Positions 1,343-56,044 of a stretch of 64,000 nucleotides of DNA are shown in pieces (positions within the stretch are counted from its first letter, which is position 1; each line of letters opens with the position of its first letter). The DNA comes from Stygiolobus caldivivus. Its GTDB lineage: Archaea; Thermoproteota; Thermoprotei_A; Sulfolobales; Sulfolobaceae. The stretch is taken from the NCBI RefSeq assembly GCF_019704315.1, contig NZ_AP024597.1, positions 868,001-932,000 of the forward strand, given 5' to 3'. The position numbers and the translations under genes are program-made. Under the pieces are notes generated by a model. It searched no databases and was not told the origin of the DNA. It was given only the letters and a program-made list of their open reading frames with translations.

Positions 1343-1987
1343 ATGGGATTATTAGGAGAGGAGCTTTACAGCTGTAGTTTATGCCCTAGGCTAAAAGACT
1401 ACACCCTGTCTATAACTCCTCCCCCACGTTTTAGGGGTTGGGTTTATTGGTCTAAACCGGTCCCGGGGTTTGGAGACCCTAAAGCCAAGATCATGCTAGT
1501 CGGTCTTGCACCGGCTGCGCATGGAGGGAACAGGACTGGGAGGAGTTTTACCGGTGACCAATCGGGCCAATGGGTCGTCCGTGGGCTCTATGAAATAGGG
1601 TTAGCGAACAGGCCCGAGAGCGTGTCAAGGGATGACGGCTTAGAGCTAAAGTGTGTTTATATTACGAATGCCGTAAAGTGCGCTCCTCCCGAAAACAGGC
1701 CGTTAAATGACGAGGTCAGGAACTGTGCTACTACATGGCTCTTGAAGGAGATAACTTCTCTAAGCGACCTCAAGGTTATCTTAACCCTAGGGAGGATAGC
1801 GTTTTTCAGCATTTCCATGTTGCTCAACTTTAACGAGAAGTTCCAGCACGGAAAGGAGGTGAAAGCTGGTAAGTACATTGTGCTTGCAAGTTATCATGTG
1901 AGTGCCCAAAATACGAGGACTGGTAGACTCACATGGGAGGAGTGGATAAGGGTATTACGTAGGGCTAAAGATCTGGCAGGATGTTAA
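1343..1987 (+). CDS. Uracil-DNA glycosylase, family 5 (UdgB-like)
   Basis: It removes uracil and other deaminated bases from DNA in base excision repair. Visible motifs are an N-terminal CSLCPR pair of cysteines and two later cysteines (VKCAPP, RNCATTW) that fit the 4Fe-4S cluster, the motif GLAPAAHGGNRTGRSFTGD, and the C-terminal HVSAQNTRTGRLT loop. The family's motif A has no Asp/Asn catalyst after GLAP, as in family 5. An in-frame TTG at 1319 would add 8 residues. I prefer ATG at 1343 because an AT-rich box (TTTATTTT near 1311-1318) lies at promoter distance and the protein then starts like its relatives. It is monocistronic. Confidence 0.88.
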   Translation: MGLLGEELYSCSLCPRLKDYTLSITPPPRFRGWVYWSKPVPGFGDPKAKIMLVGLAPAAHGGNRTGRSFTGDQSGQWVVRGLYEIGLANRPESVSRDDGLELKCVYITNAVKCAPPENRPLNDEVRNCATTWLLKEITSLSDLKVILTLGRIAFFSISMLLNFNEKFQHGKEVKAGKYIVLASYHVSAQNTRTGRLTWEEWIRVLRRAKDLAGC

Positions 1988-2019
1988 AGTTAGTAATTTT
2001 TATTAGTTTCATCAGTTTC

Positions 2020-2400
2020 CTACCCTAAGGGTATAACTTCACTATTTGAAGTGACGACGTATATTTCGGCGTTTTGCGGTATTTGAAAATTGAATTCTGC
2101 AACAACTTTATTCAACCCCGGGGATAAAAGATCAGTGCTTTGATTGTTAACTAAGATTTTAACAGCTGTGTCATTAGGGTAGTTAACATATACCTTAACA
2201 ATTTTCACACTAGAAGTAGACTTAAGAGTGAATACTACCTCATTTCCGCTTATTATAGGTGAGCCTACCTGAGTAACTTGAATGCTACTGCTATTACTCC
2301 CTAGAATCGCAAATGTAAATCCTACGGTTACTAAAGTTATAATAACTGACGCAATTACTAGAATTAAGGCTACAATTGAATTGGAAATTCCCCGCATCAT
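2020..2400 (-). CDS. Type IV pilin-like protein with class III signal peptide
   Basis: This is a 126-residue secreted filament subunit candidate. The N terminus MMRGISNSIVALILVIAS has a short basic head ending in R-G, then about 25 hydrophobic residues. That is the archaeal class III signal expected to be cut by the prepilin peptidase PibD after the glycine. The remainder is beta-rich and Ser/Thr/Asn-rich, as in extracellular pilin bodies. No assembly ATPase or other pilus gene is nearby, so it would use machinery encoded elsewhere. Which pilus it belongs to cannot be told from sequence. Confidence 0.75.
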   Translation of the reverse strand: MMRGISNSIVALILVIASVIITLVTVGFTFAILGSNSSSIQVTQVGSPIISGNEVVFTLKSTSSVKIVKVYVNYPNDTAVKILVNNQSTDLLSPGLNKVVAEFNFQIPQNAEIYVVTSNSEVIPLG

Positions 2401-2598
2401 ATTAATATGAAAATTGGTGTAAATAAATTTTATCAGTTCAGAAATGCTAAATACCTATCTTGCAATATTTTGGAAACAATTAGATTTAAAGACTTATCTA
2501 GCAAAGCTTTGAGCCAATATATAACGTGTTAATATTCTGGTTATATCTAATTTTACACTATCTTAGAGTAGGAATGATAAAGAAGAATTTTTCCGAGC

Positions 2599-3820
2599 AG
2601 CAGTTATTCTACTTTTCCTTGGTAATACCAAACTCCTAGTATTACCAATAAAGTTTTTAGAGTAGTGCCTAACTTATTGAAAAATGTGAAACACGAGAAA
2701 TTCATCAACAACGAAAACGAGCTACACAAGGCAAAAAACGAGTTCATCAAAGCGTTCAACTTCTTAGTCGGGATACTGGTCATGGCCGGGCTAAACAAGA
2801 GGACAGCACTATCCCTAGCACTCACACCCATAACAGGAGGGAGAGCAAGCATCAGAAACACCTCCAAGACATTCCAACTAAACTACCCCAACCTACTCGA
2901 AGCACTAGAACGCCTCGAAAACGCGTGGGAAGACTACCTCCAAACACTACGCAAACAAATAACAGGACCGGTAATAGTAATAACCGACGACACCTTCGAC
3001 CACAAACCATACTCAAGAGTTAAAGGCACAGCGAGCAAACACGGAAACTACTACATCTGGTGCTCAACACACGCAAAATACGAACCCGGGGTCCAAGTCC
3101 TAACAATAGCAATACACGACCTAACCACAGGCAAGACCTACTTGGTCGGCGCGTTCCCCTACACGACGAGAAAAACCTGGGAGAGTGGGATGGTAAACTA
3201 GTCCAAGGCCGAGATAGACATGGCTGCAGAAATACTCGAAGTCCTCAAGAAACACTTCACCGTGGTAAGGGTAGTCTTCGACTCTTGGTACTGGTCTGAG
3301 AAATTAGTGAAGGGTGGAGTAGTTTCGGAGTTGAAGTCTAACAGGAGGGTCTTCAGGGTCAAGCCCTTGGAAGGAGGGGAGACGTCGTGGGTGGAGGGTC
3401 ACCCACACGTCAGGGACCTCCCTCCGGGGCCTTACTTAGCCGACCTGACCCTAGGGGACAGAGTTATCACAGTAAAGTTGTTAATAGTAGTATATAAAGG
3501 TGATAGGTTAAACTTGTACACTACTGACTTGGACTTAAGCGACGAGGAGGTAATGAGGACTTGGAAGATAAGGTGGGAGATAGAGGAGTTGCACAAGGAC
3601 ATCAAGGCCTTGGGTGTGCAGGACTCCTCCTTCCTCAAGAGGTCGAGGCTGCAGGGTTACTTGTCCCTCTTCGTGATGGTTGTGAACACGGTAAGGGGTT
3701 TGGTGTGCTCCCTTAACTTGAGGAGTGTGGAAGAGTTTTTGTGGTTTATTGAAAACCGTTTAGGAGGTGCACCGGCACTGATGAAAATCTTTAAGTTACG
3801 TTAAAGTAGAATAACTGCTG
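2599..3820 (+). mobile_element. Insertion sequence, ISC1217-like, complete with TIRs and 7-bp TSD
   Basis: The element is 1222 bases long. Its ends are inverted repeats, CAGCAGTTATTCTACTTT at 2599-2616 and the exact complement at 3803-3820. The 7-base flank TTCCGAG occurs directly before (2592-2598) and after (3821-3827), a clear target-site duplication. It contains one transposase reading frame interrupted by a single stop. Perfect termini and duplication mean the insertion is fairly recent. Family assignment (Pfam archaeal ISC1217-type DDE transposase) is from memory of the protein and is less sure than the element boundaries. Confidence 0.92.
2665..3804 (+). pseudogene. DDE transposase with single in-frame amber stop
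   Basis: The frame from GTG 2665 to 3804 is open for about 379 codons except for one TAG at 3199-3201. The two halves are in the same frame, so this is a nonsense codon and not a frameshift. DDE candidates are ITDDTFDHK, VVFDSWYWSEKL and KIRWEIEELHKD. The two acidic residues on either side of the stop lie in different halves, so without readthrough no complete catalytic core is made. A downstream ATG at 3220 could begin a C-terminal fragment. Sulfolobales are not known to use pyrrolysine, so plain inactivation is the simplest view. Confidence 0.85.
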
Positions 3821-3954
3821 TTCCGAGTAATATTCTATGGGTCTCATCAGAGAAAACATTCTTAATTTTTGAACTTAAGGACTAGGTTCTGATTTGTTTA
3901 GTCTGTTCCTATTAACTCTACTGAGACTGGGTTTTTATGTCAGTAGGTCTAATC

Positions 3955-4055
3955 GTATATTCAATCAGAGTATAAAGGACAAGAGATCCCTTTCTAAAAT
4001 TACGTTAAAGCTTCTAACGGATGGGAAAAGGTATTTTGATTCTAACCAAGTATAA
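3955..4055. mobile_element. Possible MITE-like inverted-repeat element (degenerate)
   Basis: The right end TCTAACCAAGTATAA is the complement of the TTATACTTGGTTAGA-type terminus shared by the other copies. The left end (TATATTCAATCAGAGTATAAAGGACAAG) is a weaker match. The length near 100 bases fits the family. It holds no reading frame. Confidence 0.4.
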
Positions 4056-4293
4056 AATGTTTCACCTTTTTATCAAGTTCACCCATATTTCCTAAGACCT
4101 TAAAGGGTTAAACCCTTCTTCATAAAATACTGAGGTTTAGCGTAATTTTACAGTCATTGTTACCATTTATTATACTCCATGAGTGTATGAAAGATATCTG
4201 TTACCTCTAAAATTACATTAGGAGCATTTACTGTGTTATGCATAAAGGGCTTTATCCTTAAGGGTCTAACAAGGTACAATATACGTCCAAGTA

Positions 4294-4400
4294 TTATACT
4301 CGGTCAGTTTATAAAGTGCAGCATTATCGTCAACTTAAGGCTGATACGTATGCGGGACGGGATAGCAGGAACTTGCACTTTATTTTCTAACCAAGTATAC
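4294..4400. mobile_element. MITE-like inverted-repeat element, copy 1
   Basis: The left arm TTATACTCGGTCAGTTTATA followed by AAGTGCA is mirrored at the right by TGCACTTTATTTTCTAACCA then AGTATAC. This gives arms of about 27 bases around a core of about 50. It has the same terminus and size as the elements at 4559, 20614, 35713 and 55809. No gene is inside; a short open frame across it (4233-4418) is not credible. Confidence 0.7.
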
Positions 4401-4558
4401 GATGTTGTGATGATTTAATAGATAATTTTGAGAGTCTTAAAGATTAAGCTATTTTAGCTGGTGAATAGGTTACGAGTACCCCTAATTAATCTAGAGCGTG
4501 TTAAATCTCATTATTTTGATAAGATGAATTACAATATATATTGTGTATTATTTATATA

Positions 4559-4663
4559 TTATACTTTGTCAGGGACTAAAGGGCAAGCCCCCACACTCTG
4601 CCTAGCAAATTTTTAGCCCTACACTAACGGTACTCTTGCCCTTTATTAACTGACCGGGTATAA
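4559..4663. mobile_element. MITE-like inverted-repeat element, copy 2
   Basis: The left arm reads TTATACTTTGTCAGGGACTA then AAGGGCAAG. The right arm, read on the other strand, is TTATACCCGGTCAGTTAATA then AAGGGCAAG. The element is 105 bases long and aligns along its whole length with the 104-base element at 35713-35816, including the core block CCCTACACTAACGG. That makes these two the best defined members of the family. Confidence 0.82.
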
Positions 4664-4689
4664 AAAATGCTTAAATATACGGATAGATA

Positions 4690-4842
4690 TTACGTTAAAA
4701 ACATTTAAAATAAGTATATAATACGTTATCACTATTTTGATAATACATAATCAAAAAACTTGAAAACAGATGGTATCATGAAATAAATATAATACTGATA
4801 ATGAAAAAATTTAAAATTTATTTTGTAAAGTTTTTAACGTAA
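4690..4842. repeat. 153-bp inverted-repeat element of a second type
   Basis: A 13-base perfect inverted repeat, TTACGTTAAAAAC at 4690-4702 and its complement at 4830-4842, extends imperfectly to about 26 bases on each side. The interior is AT-rich and noncoding. The arms differ from the MITE family beside it. It ends 58 bases before the start of the small gene at 4901 and so sits just upstream of that promoter. It could be a second non-autonomous element or a regulatory structure. Confidence 0.5.
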
Positions 4843-4900
4843 CTAGACCAAAAAATTTATATTTATCTACTTACAGATATTATTAATAGGAGAAAACAGA

Positions 4901-5107
4901 ATGAAATTCAGCCCAAAAATAAAGTCAAATGCAAAACTATTCCAAGTTAAAAACATATTATTAGTAGCAGCATTAGCAGCACCTATAGTATACGCACTAC
5001 TCACGGGAGAACTAGCCTCATTAATTCACATTATAATGAGCAGGAGTGACATAGAAGTAGTGTCTGCCTATGCTGGAGGAGGTAGTGCAGGGGGTATAGG
5101 TAGCTAA
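4901..5107 (+). CDS. Small single-span membrane peptide with glycine-rich tail
   Basis: The 68-residue product has a basic N terminus (MKFSPKIKSNAKLFQVK), one hydrophobic span (about residues 18-35, ILLVAALAAPIVYALLTG), and a tail ending SAYAGGGSAGGIGS. A GGAG ribosome-binding site lies 8 bases before ATG, and a TTTATATTTA box lies at 4856-4865. No family is recognised. The shape (basic leader, membrane span, Gly/Ser tail) would suit a secreted peptide, bacteriocin-like or signalling peptide, but that is a guess. It converges with the regulator-like gene at 5165-5947, 57 bases away. Confidence 0.6.
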   Translation: MKFSPKIKSNAKLFQVKNILLVAALAAPIVYALLTGELASLIHIIMSRSDIEVVSAYAGGGSAGGIGS

Positions 5108-5164
5108 TAAGGGCTGTGTAATTAAAAAGAAATATATTTTATATCGTAATGTAAAATATTTATT

Positions 5165-5947
5165 TTATTTTAATGTTTTTATGTTTAATTTAGTTATTAT
5201 TCTAAGCGGTGGGGAAATCACTTTCCCTTTTATTTCAAATCTATCTTTCGAACTCTTGTATACTATAGAGGATTTCGGATCTTTTATTCCTTTATATTGT
5301 ACATCTATTACGTGAATAGGATCTGTGTAAATTTTAGCAGAAAACTTAATTGTCGGAGCATAGAAATCGAATACGAAATAATCTGTCTCAGGGTATAGAT
5401 AATAGTACGTAATATAGGTAAATGAATATGAATGCCTTGGTAGAACAGGTTTAAGTGTGGGAAAAGTAAAAGAGCATGAATTATGAGGGCAGACGTCCCT
5501 ATTGAGTACCATCCTTATTTCATTCCCAGTCGAATCGGAATAGTAGAAGTCTCTTCCCCATACAATATCACCATAAAAGTTAACATTAATGTAATTTACA
5601 TAATCTAACGATAGGTTAATTGTTTTCGTAATTGTCTTATATTCAACAACAACATAATCTCTTGTAACTTCTACCGGTGTAATCATATCCTTCCTTTCCG
5701 TAATCACATTTCTTTCCTGCTTTATAACAGTGTATCCTCTTTCCTTTATTCCTAAATCTTGACACCCAAATATTTTCCCCATTTTCTTAGCTTCATTTAT
5801 TATTCTTCTTAATTCTCTAGGAGATAAATTAGTTTCTTGCCTTATTTTCGAAAGGGGGACGCACATTCGATCTTCTTTGATTGATATTTCGTTCATTACA
5901 TTAATTATGTCAGATAACGTTTGGTAAAACGCTATATCATCACTCAT
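5165..5947 (-). CDS. Winged-helix protein with beta-rich C-terminal domain, unknown family
   Basis: This is a 260-residue protein. Residues about 1-70 look like a winged helix (helices then CVPLSKIRQETNLSPRELRR as a recognition region, then a GYTVI hairpin). Residues 90-260 are rich in alternating Tyr/Val/Phe beta strands with one CPHNSC pair and the aromatic run YSFTYITYYYLYPETDYF. This suggests an N-terminal DNA-binding domain plus an immunoglobulin- or jelly-roll-like sensor or partner domain. No signal peptide is seen. An AATATAAATAT box about 25-35 bases upstream on the minus strand fits leaderless transcription. The function is unknown; regulation of the neighbouring peptide gene is inference. 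Confidence 0.7.
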   Translation of the reverse strand: MSDDIAFYQTLSDIINVMNEISIKEDRMCVPLSKIRQETNLSPRELRRIINEAKKMGKIFGCQDLGIKERGYTVIKQERNVITERKDMITPVEVTRDYVVVEYKTITKTINLSLDYVNYINVNFYGDIVWGRDFYYSDSTGNEIRMVLNRDVCPHNSCSFTFPTLKPVLPRHSYSFTYITYYYLYPETDYFVFDFYAPTIKFSAKIYTDPIHVIDVQYKGIKDPKSSIVYKSSKDRFEIKGKVISPPLRIITKLNIKTLK

Positions 5948-6545
5948 TACCGTTATTATTATTATAACGTATATTTATATTTTTACTAAGTTTATGTATG
6001 TTCAATTAGTTAGGTATTCCAATATTTTGTTCAATATATTAGTATTCAAAATTCCCAATAATTGGGCAGTATTATGAGACTTAATAAGGTAACCCTGAGA
6101 AAATTTTACTATTTAATATCCTAAAGACGTAATATCAGTGTGGTTAGTTCACAACTGAAAAATAGGATTATTCGGGTCAAATATTGGTAGTAAAGAGTAC
6201 TAAATCTGGTAGTATAGCTATCTGTTATCATGAGATTTAGTCATCTTTTGAGAAAAGCTATAGTATAATACTAACTAGATCTATATATTAAAGATAATAG
6301 TTAACTATTACGAATATCCGTTTATTAAGTTTTAACCTACGTAAAACAAAAATTTAATATTTTTCAAGATTCAGAAATAATATATTAACTCACAGAACTT
6401 GATCCGTTTAGATTTTACATCCACATGCCCGCCGAGATGGTAAGACACATTAACTACACGGTTCGAGTCTATTAACTCTGTTAATGTGAGCAGTGCTAGG
6501 TGTTAGGAACGCAATAATTTTTAATCATTTTTAAAATATTGATCT
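5948..6545. other. AT-rich intergenic region without recognised gene
   Basis: It holds the divergent promoters for the flanking genes at its two edges. The middle is AT-rich with stops in all frames. A block near 6430-6470 (CCGAGATGGTAAGACAC and GGTTCGAGTC) recalls pieces of a tRNA but does not fold as one. Confidence 0.6.
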
Positions 6546-7100
6546 ATGTGTTTATTACGAGTTGTTGATGTAAATAGACCCGTACTTACATATGACGTAG
6601 TTTTTATTAATTACGAGGACTTTGTAAAGCTCGGAGACGAGACTTATATAAGGGTACTGACTTCTGATAAGAAATGGGACGAGATAAGTAAAAGTTATTT
6701 CTATTTTATCGTCAACAAGTTAAGGTCTCTCGGGTTACTTATAGATAACGCGCTATCTTTTAAAGTGCTACTACCTTATAAACCCTCTTATAACAGTATC
6801 TCAGTTACAGAAGGGATATCCTTCATAACTAAAGACAAGAAGCTCATTTACTATGATGCTGAAAAGGAAGCATATAAGTGCGGTATATGCCCGGTAAGTT
6901 ACGAATGCCTCTCGGCAGTAAAGTCACTCGCCAGAGAGACGGGGGCCAAAATAAGGAATGAAGAACTAGATACCGCTTGGTTCTCGTTGATTCAAAGTGT
7001 TAAGTCTCATGTCATGTCTAACCTACGTTTCCTAAGAGCTAAAGCAGACTTAGACAATTTAAAGGTGAAAGATATTGAATGGGTTAAAGAACGTCTATAA
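6546..7100 (+). CDS. Conserved-type hypothetical protein with Cys cluster
   Basis: The 184-residue soluble protein is of no family that I recognise. The C-terminal half has YKCGICPVSYECLSAVK, a C-x2-C-x5-C arrangement that could bind metal, followed by helices. The N-terminal half has a helical segment (KSYFYFIVNKLRSLGLLID) that could be a winged-helix-like fold. It overlaps the next gene by 26 bases, so the two are probably co-translated. A TTTTTAAT box about 25-30 bases upstream of ATG fits a leaderless promoter. A regulatory or redox role is possible but not shown. Confidence 0.65.
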   Translation: MCLLRVVDVNRPVLTYDVVFINYEDFVKLGDETYIRVLTSDKKWDEISKSYFYFIVNKLRSLGLLIDNALSFKVLLPYKPSYNSISVTEGISFITKDKKLIYYDAEKEAYKCGICPVSYECLSAVKSLARETGAKIRNEELDTAWFSLIQSVKSHVMSNLRFLRAKADLDNLKVKDIEWVKERL

Positions 7101-7479
7101 ACTTTCTCTGATGACAAGCTTTTTGTTATTGGTTACTTTTTCGTTAGGTCTTGGTAGGGCTTTAGCTGATACCGGGAAGGTAAGTTTTTCAGAAGGCTTC
7201 CTTTACCTCCACGTTGTATTTGCACTAATCACCGGAGTGCTTTCCTTAGCCTTATTTAAACTAGCATACAATACTGGCCTCTTATTCCCCCGTGTCTTAG
7301 CAGGTATAAATTTAATTTTTATTGCTATCGCCTCATTGAGCGGGTTATCAGTATTGTTAACTTCAGATGACGCGTTCGCGACTATAATGCTCTATTCTTT
7401 TGAGGTCTCATTTGGTGTCTCATCAGTGCTTATAGGCTACCTTTATTGCTTTTATCACTACCTTTCAGGTCGATGTTAA
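7075..7479 (+). CDS. Four-span integral membrane protein, unknown
   Basis: The 134-residue protein has four hydrophobic segments (about residues 12-28, 45-65, 74-95 and 105-127) and short loops. It starts at TTG 7075 inside the preceding gene, or alternatively at ATG 7110. The overlap with the cysteine-cluster protein upstream suggests a functional pair, perhaps a soluble sensor and its membrane partner. Its 3' end overlaps the 3' end of the convergent permease gene by 50 bases. No family is recognised. Confidence 0.6.
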   Translation: MNGLKNVYKLSLMTSFLLLVTFSLGLGRALADTGKVSFSEGFLYLHVVFALITGVLSLALFKLAYNTGLLFPRVLAGINLIFIAIASLSGLSVLLTSDDAFATIMLYSFEVSFGVSSVLIGYLYCFYHYLSGRC

Positions 7480-9061
7480 ATACCCTCCTAGTGACCTCAG
7501 AATAGTAACCTTTTCCTAAGGACCCGTGTAGGTCACTCTGGTACTTAGGGATTACCCATAGCGTCATCAGCGGGGTATAAATTAGGCCAGACGCTAGGAA
7601 CGAGAAGAGCCATGCATTATCCAGCACTATACTTTCCCCCGGATAAGGTATATAGAGTAGGGCTGAGACCACAATGAAGGTTATGACGGCTGCTGGGTTG
7701 ACCCCTTTCCAATACCTAAACCTGCCCTTAGAAAGGAATACGTCCAGTAATTCGAATTTAAACCTCCTTATTACCGCGTAGTCAAATATTATTATACCTT
7801 CTACACTCCCTAAAAGCCCACCGTAAGTTAAAAGCCAGTTCTGTATATACCCGTAGGCGTTACCGTAATAACTCCACGCACCAAGCCCGAGCCCTATCAC
7901 TATGAGGAGTAAAGACCCCTTGAACCATGTTAACTTTTTGGGGAAGGTGTTCGCTATGTCGTATGCCGGCCCTACTGCGTTAGCGAAAACGTTTACGGTA
8001 AAAGTGGCTAAGATAAAGGAGAAGAGGACAAAAACGTTAAGCGGGGGAGCCATGTGCAAGGTTACAAGCACTATGGGGTCCCAAATAGCTTGACCGAAGA
8101 GCTTTAGTGACGATGCAGTAGTCATGGTTGACATAAAGGCGATCAAGAGCATTAAGAAAGGCATGGGGACTTGCCCCAACGTTTGGGCTGTCTGGCTCTT
8201 AGCAAACCTGGTGTAATCCGGCATAGTCACTGCCATGGTAGCCCAGAAAGCGATGTTAGCATTAAGGAAGGCGAGGATCGTTAACAAGTTAAAGGGAGAT
8301 GATGAAGGTGAGAGTGTAAGTATATTCACGTCCCACTCCACTTTTTGCATGAAGTATAACCACGTTATTAAGAAACCTATCAAGATGATAGGCCCGCTCA
8401 GCCTTGCTAACCAGCGGAGGACTGGCTGGGACTTGGTAACAGGTGAGAAGTAAAACACGAGGACTTGTGCGAGTATTACCAACGCGAAAGTCCCCCAGAA
8501 TATTTCCGGGAAGTCCTTGCTTAAGACGAACGGGTAGTCTGCATAGTGTGATACGGTATATGAGATTATGTCGACTTTATCACTGACAATCGCATAAATA
8601 GCTGTAGCAGCTTCGGTTATTATGTATGATTCGATACCCCACCATCCAGCACCTATTACTGCCCTTATCCAACTCGGGAAGATAGCACCATATATCCCCC
8701 ACCTAGAGCGTGTAAGCTGGGGTTCCGCTATTCCGTACCGTGCCCCGCCGTGTGACTGGATGATCATTGGTATCAGGACTGCCAAGTTACCTAGGAATAC
8801 TAAGAGTATGGACTGTAAAGCGTTAAGCCCCATGACTATACCTACACTTGCTAAAGTCCAGCTAGGGATGATGAAAGCCATGGACACCCAGATTAAAAAG
8901 TAAGTCAGAGGGCCCCAGTTCCTGTCCTTCACCGGTATAGGGTGGATATCGGCGTTCCATAAATACTTTTCTTGAGGTAGGGGCGTAGTTAATTCTACTT
9001 GCCCTTTTTCCGGGTAATACCTAGTGACTTCAAGCGGGTTTATAACTCGGTCTTCTGCCAT
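7430..9061 (-). CDS. NCS1 family nucleobase/allantoin-type permease
   Basis: The 543-residue transporter has about 12 hydrophobic spans and belongs to the nucleobase:cation symporter-1 family (cytosine, uracil, allantoin or hydantoin uptake). Family features are the opening NRNWGPLTYFLIWVSM-like segment (here DRNWGPLTYFLIW), GARYGIAEPQLTRSRWG, IGAGWWGIESYI and MPDYTRFAKS. The substrate cannot be read from sequence. No nucleobase catabolic gene lies next to it; the next gene on the same strand is an acyl-CoA enzyme. The extended N terminus (ATG 9061) matches homologues that begin about 40 residues before the first span. Confidence 0.9.
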   Translation of the reverse strand: MAEDRVINPLEVTRYYPEKGQVELTTPLPQEKYLWNADIHPIPVKDRNWGPLTYFLIWVSMAFIIPSWTLASVGIVMGLNALQSILLVFLGNLAVLIPMIIQSHGGARYGIAEPQLTRSRWGIYGAIFPSWIRAVIGAGWWGIESYIITEAATAIYAIVSDKVDIISYTVSHYADYPFVLSKDFPEIFWGTFALVILAQVLVFYFSPVTKSQPVLRWLARLSGPIILIGFLITWLYFMQKVEWDVNILTLSPSSSPFNLLTILAFLNANIAFWATMAVTMPDYTRFAKSQTAQTLGQVPMPFLMLLIAFMSTMTTASSLKLFGQAIWDPIVLVTLHMAPPLNVFVLFSFILATFTVNVFANAVGPAYDIANTFPKKLTWFKGSLLLIVIGLGLGAWSYYGNAYGYIQNWLLTYGGLLGSVEGIIIFDYAVIRRFKFELLDVFLSKGRFRYWKGVNPAAVITFIVVSALLYIPYPGESIVLDNAWLFSFLASGLIYTPLMTLWVIPKYQSDLHGSLGKGYYSEVTRRVFNIDLKGSDKSNKGSL

Positions 9062-35675: not shown

Positions 35676-35712
35676 AAACCGGGAAAGCAATTAGTTTTTT
35701 TTATATTTGATT

Positions 35713-35816
35713 TTATACTTTGTTAAGGACTAAAGGGTAAGGCGTATTCTCTTGTTTAGTGAATTTTTACCCCTACACTAACGGCATTGTTGCCCTTTAT
35801 TAACTGCCGGGTATAA
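35713..35816. mobile_element. MITE-like inverted-repeat element, copy 4, truncating a HEPN gene
   Basis: The 104-base element aligns end to end with 4559-4663. Its arms are TTATACTTTGTTAAGGACTA then AAGGGTAAG, and GCCCTTTATTAACTGCCGGG then TATAA. On its right it abuts the HEPN remnant, whose reading frame runs into the element and there loses its family resemblance. Confidence 0.82.
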
Positions 35817-36020
35817 TAAGTGAGGTATCGAATAGCCTCTTTTTTTTCGATGCCTTGGAACTGCAATAAACCTTTAACTGCTTTTTCTACACGTTGCTGA
35901 GGAAGAAAGCATGAGTTCGTAATATCCTCCAGAGTTTGCAAAACGGGCTTCTTCCAGGTCCCTCTCAGCTTGCTTTAACCAATCCTCTACTCTCTTCGCT
36001 AGACATAGTATAATTAACAT
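35817..36020 (-). pseudogene. HEPN domain gene, frameshifted and truncated by MITE
   Basis: On the minus strand from ATG 36020 the frame reads MLIILCLAKRVEDWLKQAER then DLEEARFANSGGYYELM, a typical HEPN N terminus. It must then change frame to continue CFLPQQRVEKAVKGLLQFQG, also typical, before reaching the MITE at 35816. The protein would normally be about 120-135 residues; only about 67 codons remain. No nucleotidyltransferase partner is left beside it. The decay order (frameshift or insertion first) is unknown. Confidence 0.7.
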
Positions 36021-55808: not shown

Positions 55809-55917
55809 TTATACTTGGTCAGTTCGTAAAGGACAACAGGAGCTTTAGCCTGAAGTATATACATTCACTATGAATATGATGAAGGACTTGCCCTTTAGCG
55901 CCTGACTAAGTATATAA
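55809..55917. mobile_element. MITE-like inverted-repeat element, copy 5
   Basis: The left arm TTATACTTGGTCAGTTCGTA then AAGGACAAC is mirrored by GACTTGCCCTTTAGCGCCTG then ACTAAGTATATAA. The size is 109 bases. It lies in the 392-base gap between the methyltransferase and PaREP1 genes, which otherwise holds nothing. Confidence 0.7.
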
Positions 55918-56044
55918 CCTCATTATAATACGCTTTTTTATACAGTGTCACGTATTAATACCGTCATGCCTATTTAATGTGATAACCTCATTCTATCCAG
56001 ACAAATAGAGTTTCCAAGAGAGTCGTGAAAGGTTCTGCCTCTAC

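Follow-up and report, generated by a model that had tools for sequence, protein, structure and literature searches.

Does a small membrane peptide that lies tail to tail with a DNA-binding protein belong to it, as an effector to its regulator, or are the two simply neighbours? The question arises at one locus in the 64,000-nucleotide stretch analysed here (hereafter the window), from an archaeon of hot, acidic habitats. Two frames that an earlier, sequence-only reading had placed there are indeed present and converge tail to tail. The first (4901-5107, + strand) encodes a 68-aa orphan membrane peptide, P0001, recognised from its sequence; the second (5165-5947, - strand) encodes a 260-aa protein, P0002, which homologues and AlphaFold2 identify as a winged-helix plus beta-sandwich protein and a divergent member of a Sulfolobaceae family. 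Each gene has its own TATA-like box, read from the sequence: TTATATTTAT at 4857-4866 (+) for the peptide, and TAAAAATATAAATAT at 5971-5985 (-) for P0002. We think it probable that P0001 and P0002 are independent accessory genes, and chance neighbours within an accessory patch. It is no surprise to find orphan membrane microproteins, or one-component regulators without a class, in the accessory regions of archaea.

P0001 consists of a basic head with five Lys within residues 1-17, a hydrophobic span (best 19-residue hydropathy mean 2.07, starting at residue 16), and the Gly/Ser tail AGGGSAGGIGS. Hydropathy and family searches agree with its earlier description as a small peptide with one span, a Gly tail, and no recognised family. 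A Shine-Dalgarno-like GGAG (4889-4892, +) lies 8 nt 5' of the ATG at 4901, and the distance of TTATATTTAT from this start fits archaeal promoter spacing. Within the frame, purines make up 72% of codon position 1 and A makes up 53% of position 3, and the other two forward frames of the region contain 13 and 4 stops. Alternatively, the 68-aa frame might be no gene, having stayed open by chance in DNA rich in AT. Of 1000 Markov samples (based on 1751 adjacent noncoding bases), 8.9% contained an ATG-started frame of 68 aa or longer, and therefore length alone is weak evidence for P0001; moreover, no homologue was found in 214 genomes, and one antisense frame, interrupted by two stops, has the better score per codon (0.330 against 0.175 bits/codon). 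This codon score says little, because the certain 260-aa gene is itself negative by the same measure (-0.111), with a higher-scoring antisense frame. Against a chance frame stand the GGAG at a suitable distance, the TATA-like box, the codon-position bias, the many stops in the other forward frames, and the coherent head-span-tail design, and we regard it as unlikely. From the codon-position bias and the start signals P0001 is likely to be a gene, most likely one that is truly translated, into a membrane microprotein restricted to its lineage. Membrane insertion appears to be the sole property of P0001 that its sequence supports. Following the positive-inside rule, the N terminus of the inserted peptide would lie on the inner side of the membrane and the Gly tail on the outer side.

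No credible homologue of P0001 was found in genomes of the order (98 searched at first, 214 later), where the only convincing match was P0001 itself. Nor was there a credible match in phages, in plasmids, in Pfam, NCBIfam, PADLOC, or PHROGs (best phrog_35530, E 0.25), or in viral contigs, a search sensitive to close relatives only. The best outside match (E 0.013, 28% over 46 residues) falls within 369-aa frames in genomes of another family of the order, with three relatives at E 0.016-0.019, and was judged to be chance. The DNA pattern of the GGGSAGG tail occurs at four places in three of 31 genomes, the window itself included; the other three places lie in stop-free frames of 15, 31, and 87 codons in which no membrane span could be recognised by eye. 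The accessible portion of one publication (PMC11018855) contains nothing on the 68-aa peptide.

A pilin-like or coat-like remnant of a mobile element, with a hinge at Gly36 between two helices in the manner of CedA1/VirB2-type pilins, is another possible identity for P0001. A weak single-sequence AlphaFold2 model (mean pLDDT 71, pTM 0.33) has helices at 6-35 and 37-58 and a loose tail, and mobile elements adjoin the gene. The small two-helix design recalls CedA1 and CedA2 of the Ced DNA importer, both made up of two hydrophobic helices according to the accessible part of PMC11868833. However, the second helix of P0001 bears R48, D50, and E52 and contains no strong hydrophobic window, and a search of PDB sequences (a set that may be without a solved CedA1 chain) found nothing for P0001 up to E 10; phages, plasmids, and, as far as close relatives are concerned, viral contigs gave no match either. 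We consider this identity distinctly unlikely. In type IV prepilins, the class III signal motif precedes the hydrophobic stretch. Its pattern, [KRDE][GA][ALIFQMVED][ILMVTAS], is absent from all 68 residues of P0001.

P0002 is a real gene, judging by its homologues. Relatives are encoded in four other genomes (G004, G013, G028, and G012) and by a second intact copy in its own genome (G000), which also carries a decayed copy in two pieces (G000:C1:1322231-1322758). Compared with the five intact relatives one by one, P0002 aligns at E 6.2e-20 to 1.8e-17 over residues 11-225 at most; the similarity is significant over most of its length, which places P0002 in the family, and the alignment is poor after about residue 210. 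In a six-sequence alignment it is the outlier, with 23-26% identity to the others, while the G004, G013, and G028 proteins and the G000 paralogue are 57-77% identical among themselves. Twenty-two columns are invariant in the six sequences, including C29 and C62, both in the winged-helix part. A second Cys pair, C-P-x-N-x-C, is present in P0002 and the G012 protein alone among the six, and by this motif the latter is the nearer relative. A six-row profile matches 12 of the 214 genomes of the order at E <= 0.01: five strongly (E 1e-83 or better), and seven at E 0.002-0.008, with matches confined to profile positions 4-110, largely the winged-helix part. Class-wide, five of 229 genomes match the family at E <= 1e-4, and no relatives of P0002 were found in viral contigs, phages, or plasmids. 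The look-alike neighbour proteins at the G004, G013, and G028 loci show no recognisable kinship with P0002 (hhalign probability 0.1-0.3%).

The AlphaFold2 model of P0002 (mean pLDDT 68, pTM 0.51) forms a winged helix as far as about residue 78. The C-terminal fold, whose prediction the sequence-only reading had proposed, comes out as a beta sandwich with strands at 80-184; residues 187-260 are below pLDDT 50 and unreliable. Model and library searches thus bear out the earlier description of a winged-helix protein with a beta-rich second half and no recognised family. The winged helix matches solved ones with Z up to 9.0 (6g18_v, rmsd 2.8, 68 residues; VIA-align). The beta half resembles aminopeptidases and an OST subunit (Z about 6), generic sandwiches that we do not take as kinship; these matches neither point to one family nor exclude any. 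In a viral library, the fold search returned nothing at E <= 0.001.

The N-terminal winged helix links the family to MarR-type regulators: Pfam MarR_2 matches five of the six members (best 1.1e-6). P0002 is the exception, with no MarR or MarR_2 match in Pfam, where only HEPN_MAE_28990 appears at E 0.34, and no match in NCBIfam or PADLOC; in PHROGs it matches phrog_2113 at 0.0013, over residues 29-93 only. The second half also sets P0002 apart, since MarR proteins have helices for dimer contact in place of its beta sandwich. Among archaeal proteins of two domains, RbkR (5trd) and Csa3 likewise carry a winged helix beside a second domain, but the matches are limited to the winged-helix part (5trd_A: Z 6.8, rmsd 3.1, 64 residues), and that of the G012 relative to a PADLOC Csa3 model (1.6e-4) covers residues 7-81. 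The gene of this G012 relative, whose winged helix is weakly like Csa3 models, adjoins a CRISPR-like array (L041:10334-10829; eight repeats, 65-67 bp spacing). P0002 is most likely a one-component transcription regulator. Structure prediction and the family matches of its relatives suggest that the MarR-like winged helix would read DNA, and the beta-sandwich half, with its conserved Tyr/Phe and, in the P0002 subgroup, an extra Cys pair, may sense a ligand or redox state. These proteins add a small regulator family, a winged helix plus a beta sandwich with two invariant Cys, which is unnamed in the libraries searched.

Both genes lie in a patch that differs from the sister genome G001. BLASTN similarity to this genome stops at window position 1970 and restarts at 6472; the intervening 4501 bp (1971-6471) correspond to 923 bp in G001 and have no BLASTN match there at E <= 1e-3, and the sole protein-level match inside the patch covers 21 residues (E 0.007) of a frame in its MITE-like part. 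The patch contains a 126-aa gene, a split ISC1217-type transposase (2665-3804, +; frames 2665-3201 and 3220-3804, both matching Pfam DDE_Tnp_2), three MITE-like elements, the peptide gene, and the 260-aa gene. In 500-base windows, GC is 26-34% across 3751 to 6750, 39-47% on the right side, and 41-51% on the left side over the transposase. The right flank (6546-9061) has 78-83% protein identity to G001, and a 184-aa gene has relatives in 30 of 31 family genomes, its own included; the patch is therefore bounded by core genes. Thus, of the earlier picture of an accessory block between mobile elements, the AT-rich composition, the content different from the sister genome, and the mobile elements on the left hold; the right neighbour is conserved core and not a mobile element. 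The two genes would have come to lie tail to tail within this chromosomal patch.

In a DNA search of its own genome that scored the best 40 of 153 candidates, the part of the patch around the two genes, 4670-6545, has no second copy; among the other 30 family genomes (best 10 or fewer candidates scored per genome) its sole match is 23 bp long. Short copies may be missed in such searches. Rfam gives no match in 3700-6600 up to E 1. The protein encoded by the 126-aa gene (2020-2400, -) carries RGIS ahead of a hydrophobic N-terminal stretch, which we take to fit the archaeal type IV pilin signal; it has no convincing Pfam family and no match in the G001 locus. Further left, Pfam recognises a HEPN and nucleotidyltransferase gene pair (368-1046), presumably similar to HEPN-MNT toxin-antitoxin modules.

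The MITE-like elements belong to a family of about 105-115 bp with ends TATACYYGGTYAG. A regular expression for the whole element gave no matches, and copies were taken from BLAST instead. Hairpins fold better than shuffles in two of the three patch copies, those at 4292-4401 (fold z -3.08) and 4554-4668 (main subfamily; z -4.01 and -2.49 on the two strands); the third, diverged copy at 3953-4061 has no significant palindromic fold (z -0.64). More copies lie in the window at about 35710-35822 and 55810-55920. Genome-wide, the exact end motif occurs 33 times, against none for a reversed control, and among the 28 sites read a few do not continue as a MITE-like element. A BLAST search with 3805-6545 returned at least 51 rows besides itself (best 40 of 153 candidates scored), some of them one place counted on both strands; those listed all fall in window positions 3956-4058, 4292-4399, and 4533-4672. 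The main subfamily is found at one place in one of the 30 other family genomes (G007). No target-site duplication could be established, and no parent transposon was found. For comparison, ten S. islandicus genomes contain just two MITE classes, SMN1 and SM3A, according to the accessible text of PMC3718332.

Adjacency inside such a variable patch is weak evidence for a functional pair, and we looked at whether the two genes travel together elsewhere. The partner test from the peptide side is empty because P0001 has no relatives. From the side of the P0002 family, the scan covered 19 kb at each of the five other intact loci and 14 kb at the decayed one. It sought frames 40-120 aa long that have a hydrophobic stretch and three or more Gly among their last 15 residues; the seven genomes with weak family matches (E 0.002-0.008) were left out. 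No Gly-tailed membrane frame was found at any of the five intact loci (0/5) or at the decayed one (0/1). Applied to the 64-kb window, the same filter returned, besides the peptide, three frames that start with TTG or GTG. A filter with other settings, run on the surroundings of the five intact genes out to 2.5 kb, gave hydrophobic or Gly/Ser-rich small frames and no Gly-tailed membrane peptide. The co-occurrence that the earlier reading had named as a check is thus absent on the sole testable side, in a small sample, and the proposed pairing of a peptide effector with its regulator or receptor loses ground: these comparisons do not support a functional pairing of P0001 and P0002.

Their upstream regions (150 bases each) were also compared. 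The only 10-base word common to both is TATA text, ATTTATATTT; one further common word of nine bases, ATAATACTG, is non-TATA and lies far from the starts. An inverted repeat, CGTTAT-N7-ATAACG, stands directly ahead of the 260-aa gene start (5951-5969). It is absent from the peptide promoter, and no inverted repeat is common to the two regions.

If P0002 did repress or activate the peptide gene, the peptide, either intact or cleaved after VYA-32 or AYA-58, would act on competitor membranes or as a signal. We consider this very improbable. The adjacency of the genes, the shared word ATAATACTG, and the signal-like N terminus of P0001 followed by VYA at 32, with AYA at 56-58, would fit such an arrangement; so would the secreted toxins of Sulfolobales, sulfolobicins and SSV toxins, which, going by the accessible parts of PMC8628083 and PMC3718332, resemble P0001 by description as secreted or membrane-directed archaeal products. 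The former source describes the SSV9 toxin as ORF B310 with a signal peptide, and the single characterised sulfolobicin as two signal-peptide proteins. Besides the missing co-occurrence, the convergent genes with their separate TATA-like boxes and the lack of a common upstream inverted repeat argue against it, as does the neighbourhood, where Pfam sees no peptidase, peptide exporter, or known immunity gene in nine frames. The linkage scan would miss a pairing confined to the P0002 subgroup, because four of the five comparison loci are distant from P0002. Such a private effector-regulator pair, in which a young lineage-restricted peptide, possibly born in a patch rebuilt by transposition, came under a divergent winged-helix and beta-sandwich sensor, seems to us more improbable still, and we retain independent accessory genes as the reading of this locus.

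As an independent regulator, P0002 may control its own promoter through CGTTAT-N7-ATAACG, a possible self-operator. The repeat is a weak candidate, because, among the AT-rich upstream regions compared, several contain 6-nt inverted repeats by chance. The four closer members of the family share other upstream text, which P0002 does not have: GAAAAATTAAAA or a near match, compared by eye, lies 5' of all four (L042:9240, L043:9091, L044:9912, and L045:10420), and GACGGT precedes the start in three of them. This text is possibly an operator or promoter of the four-member clade.
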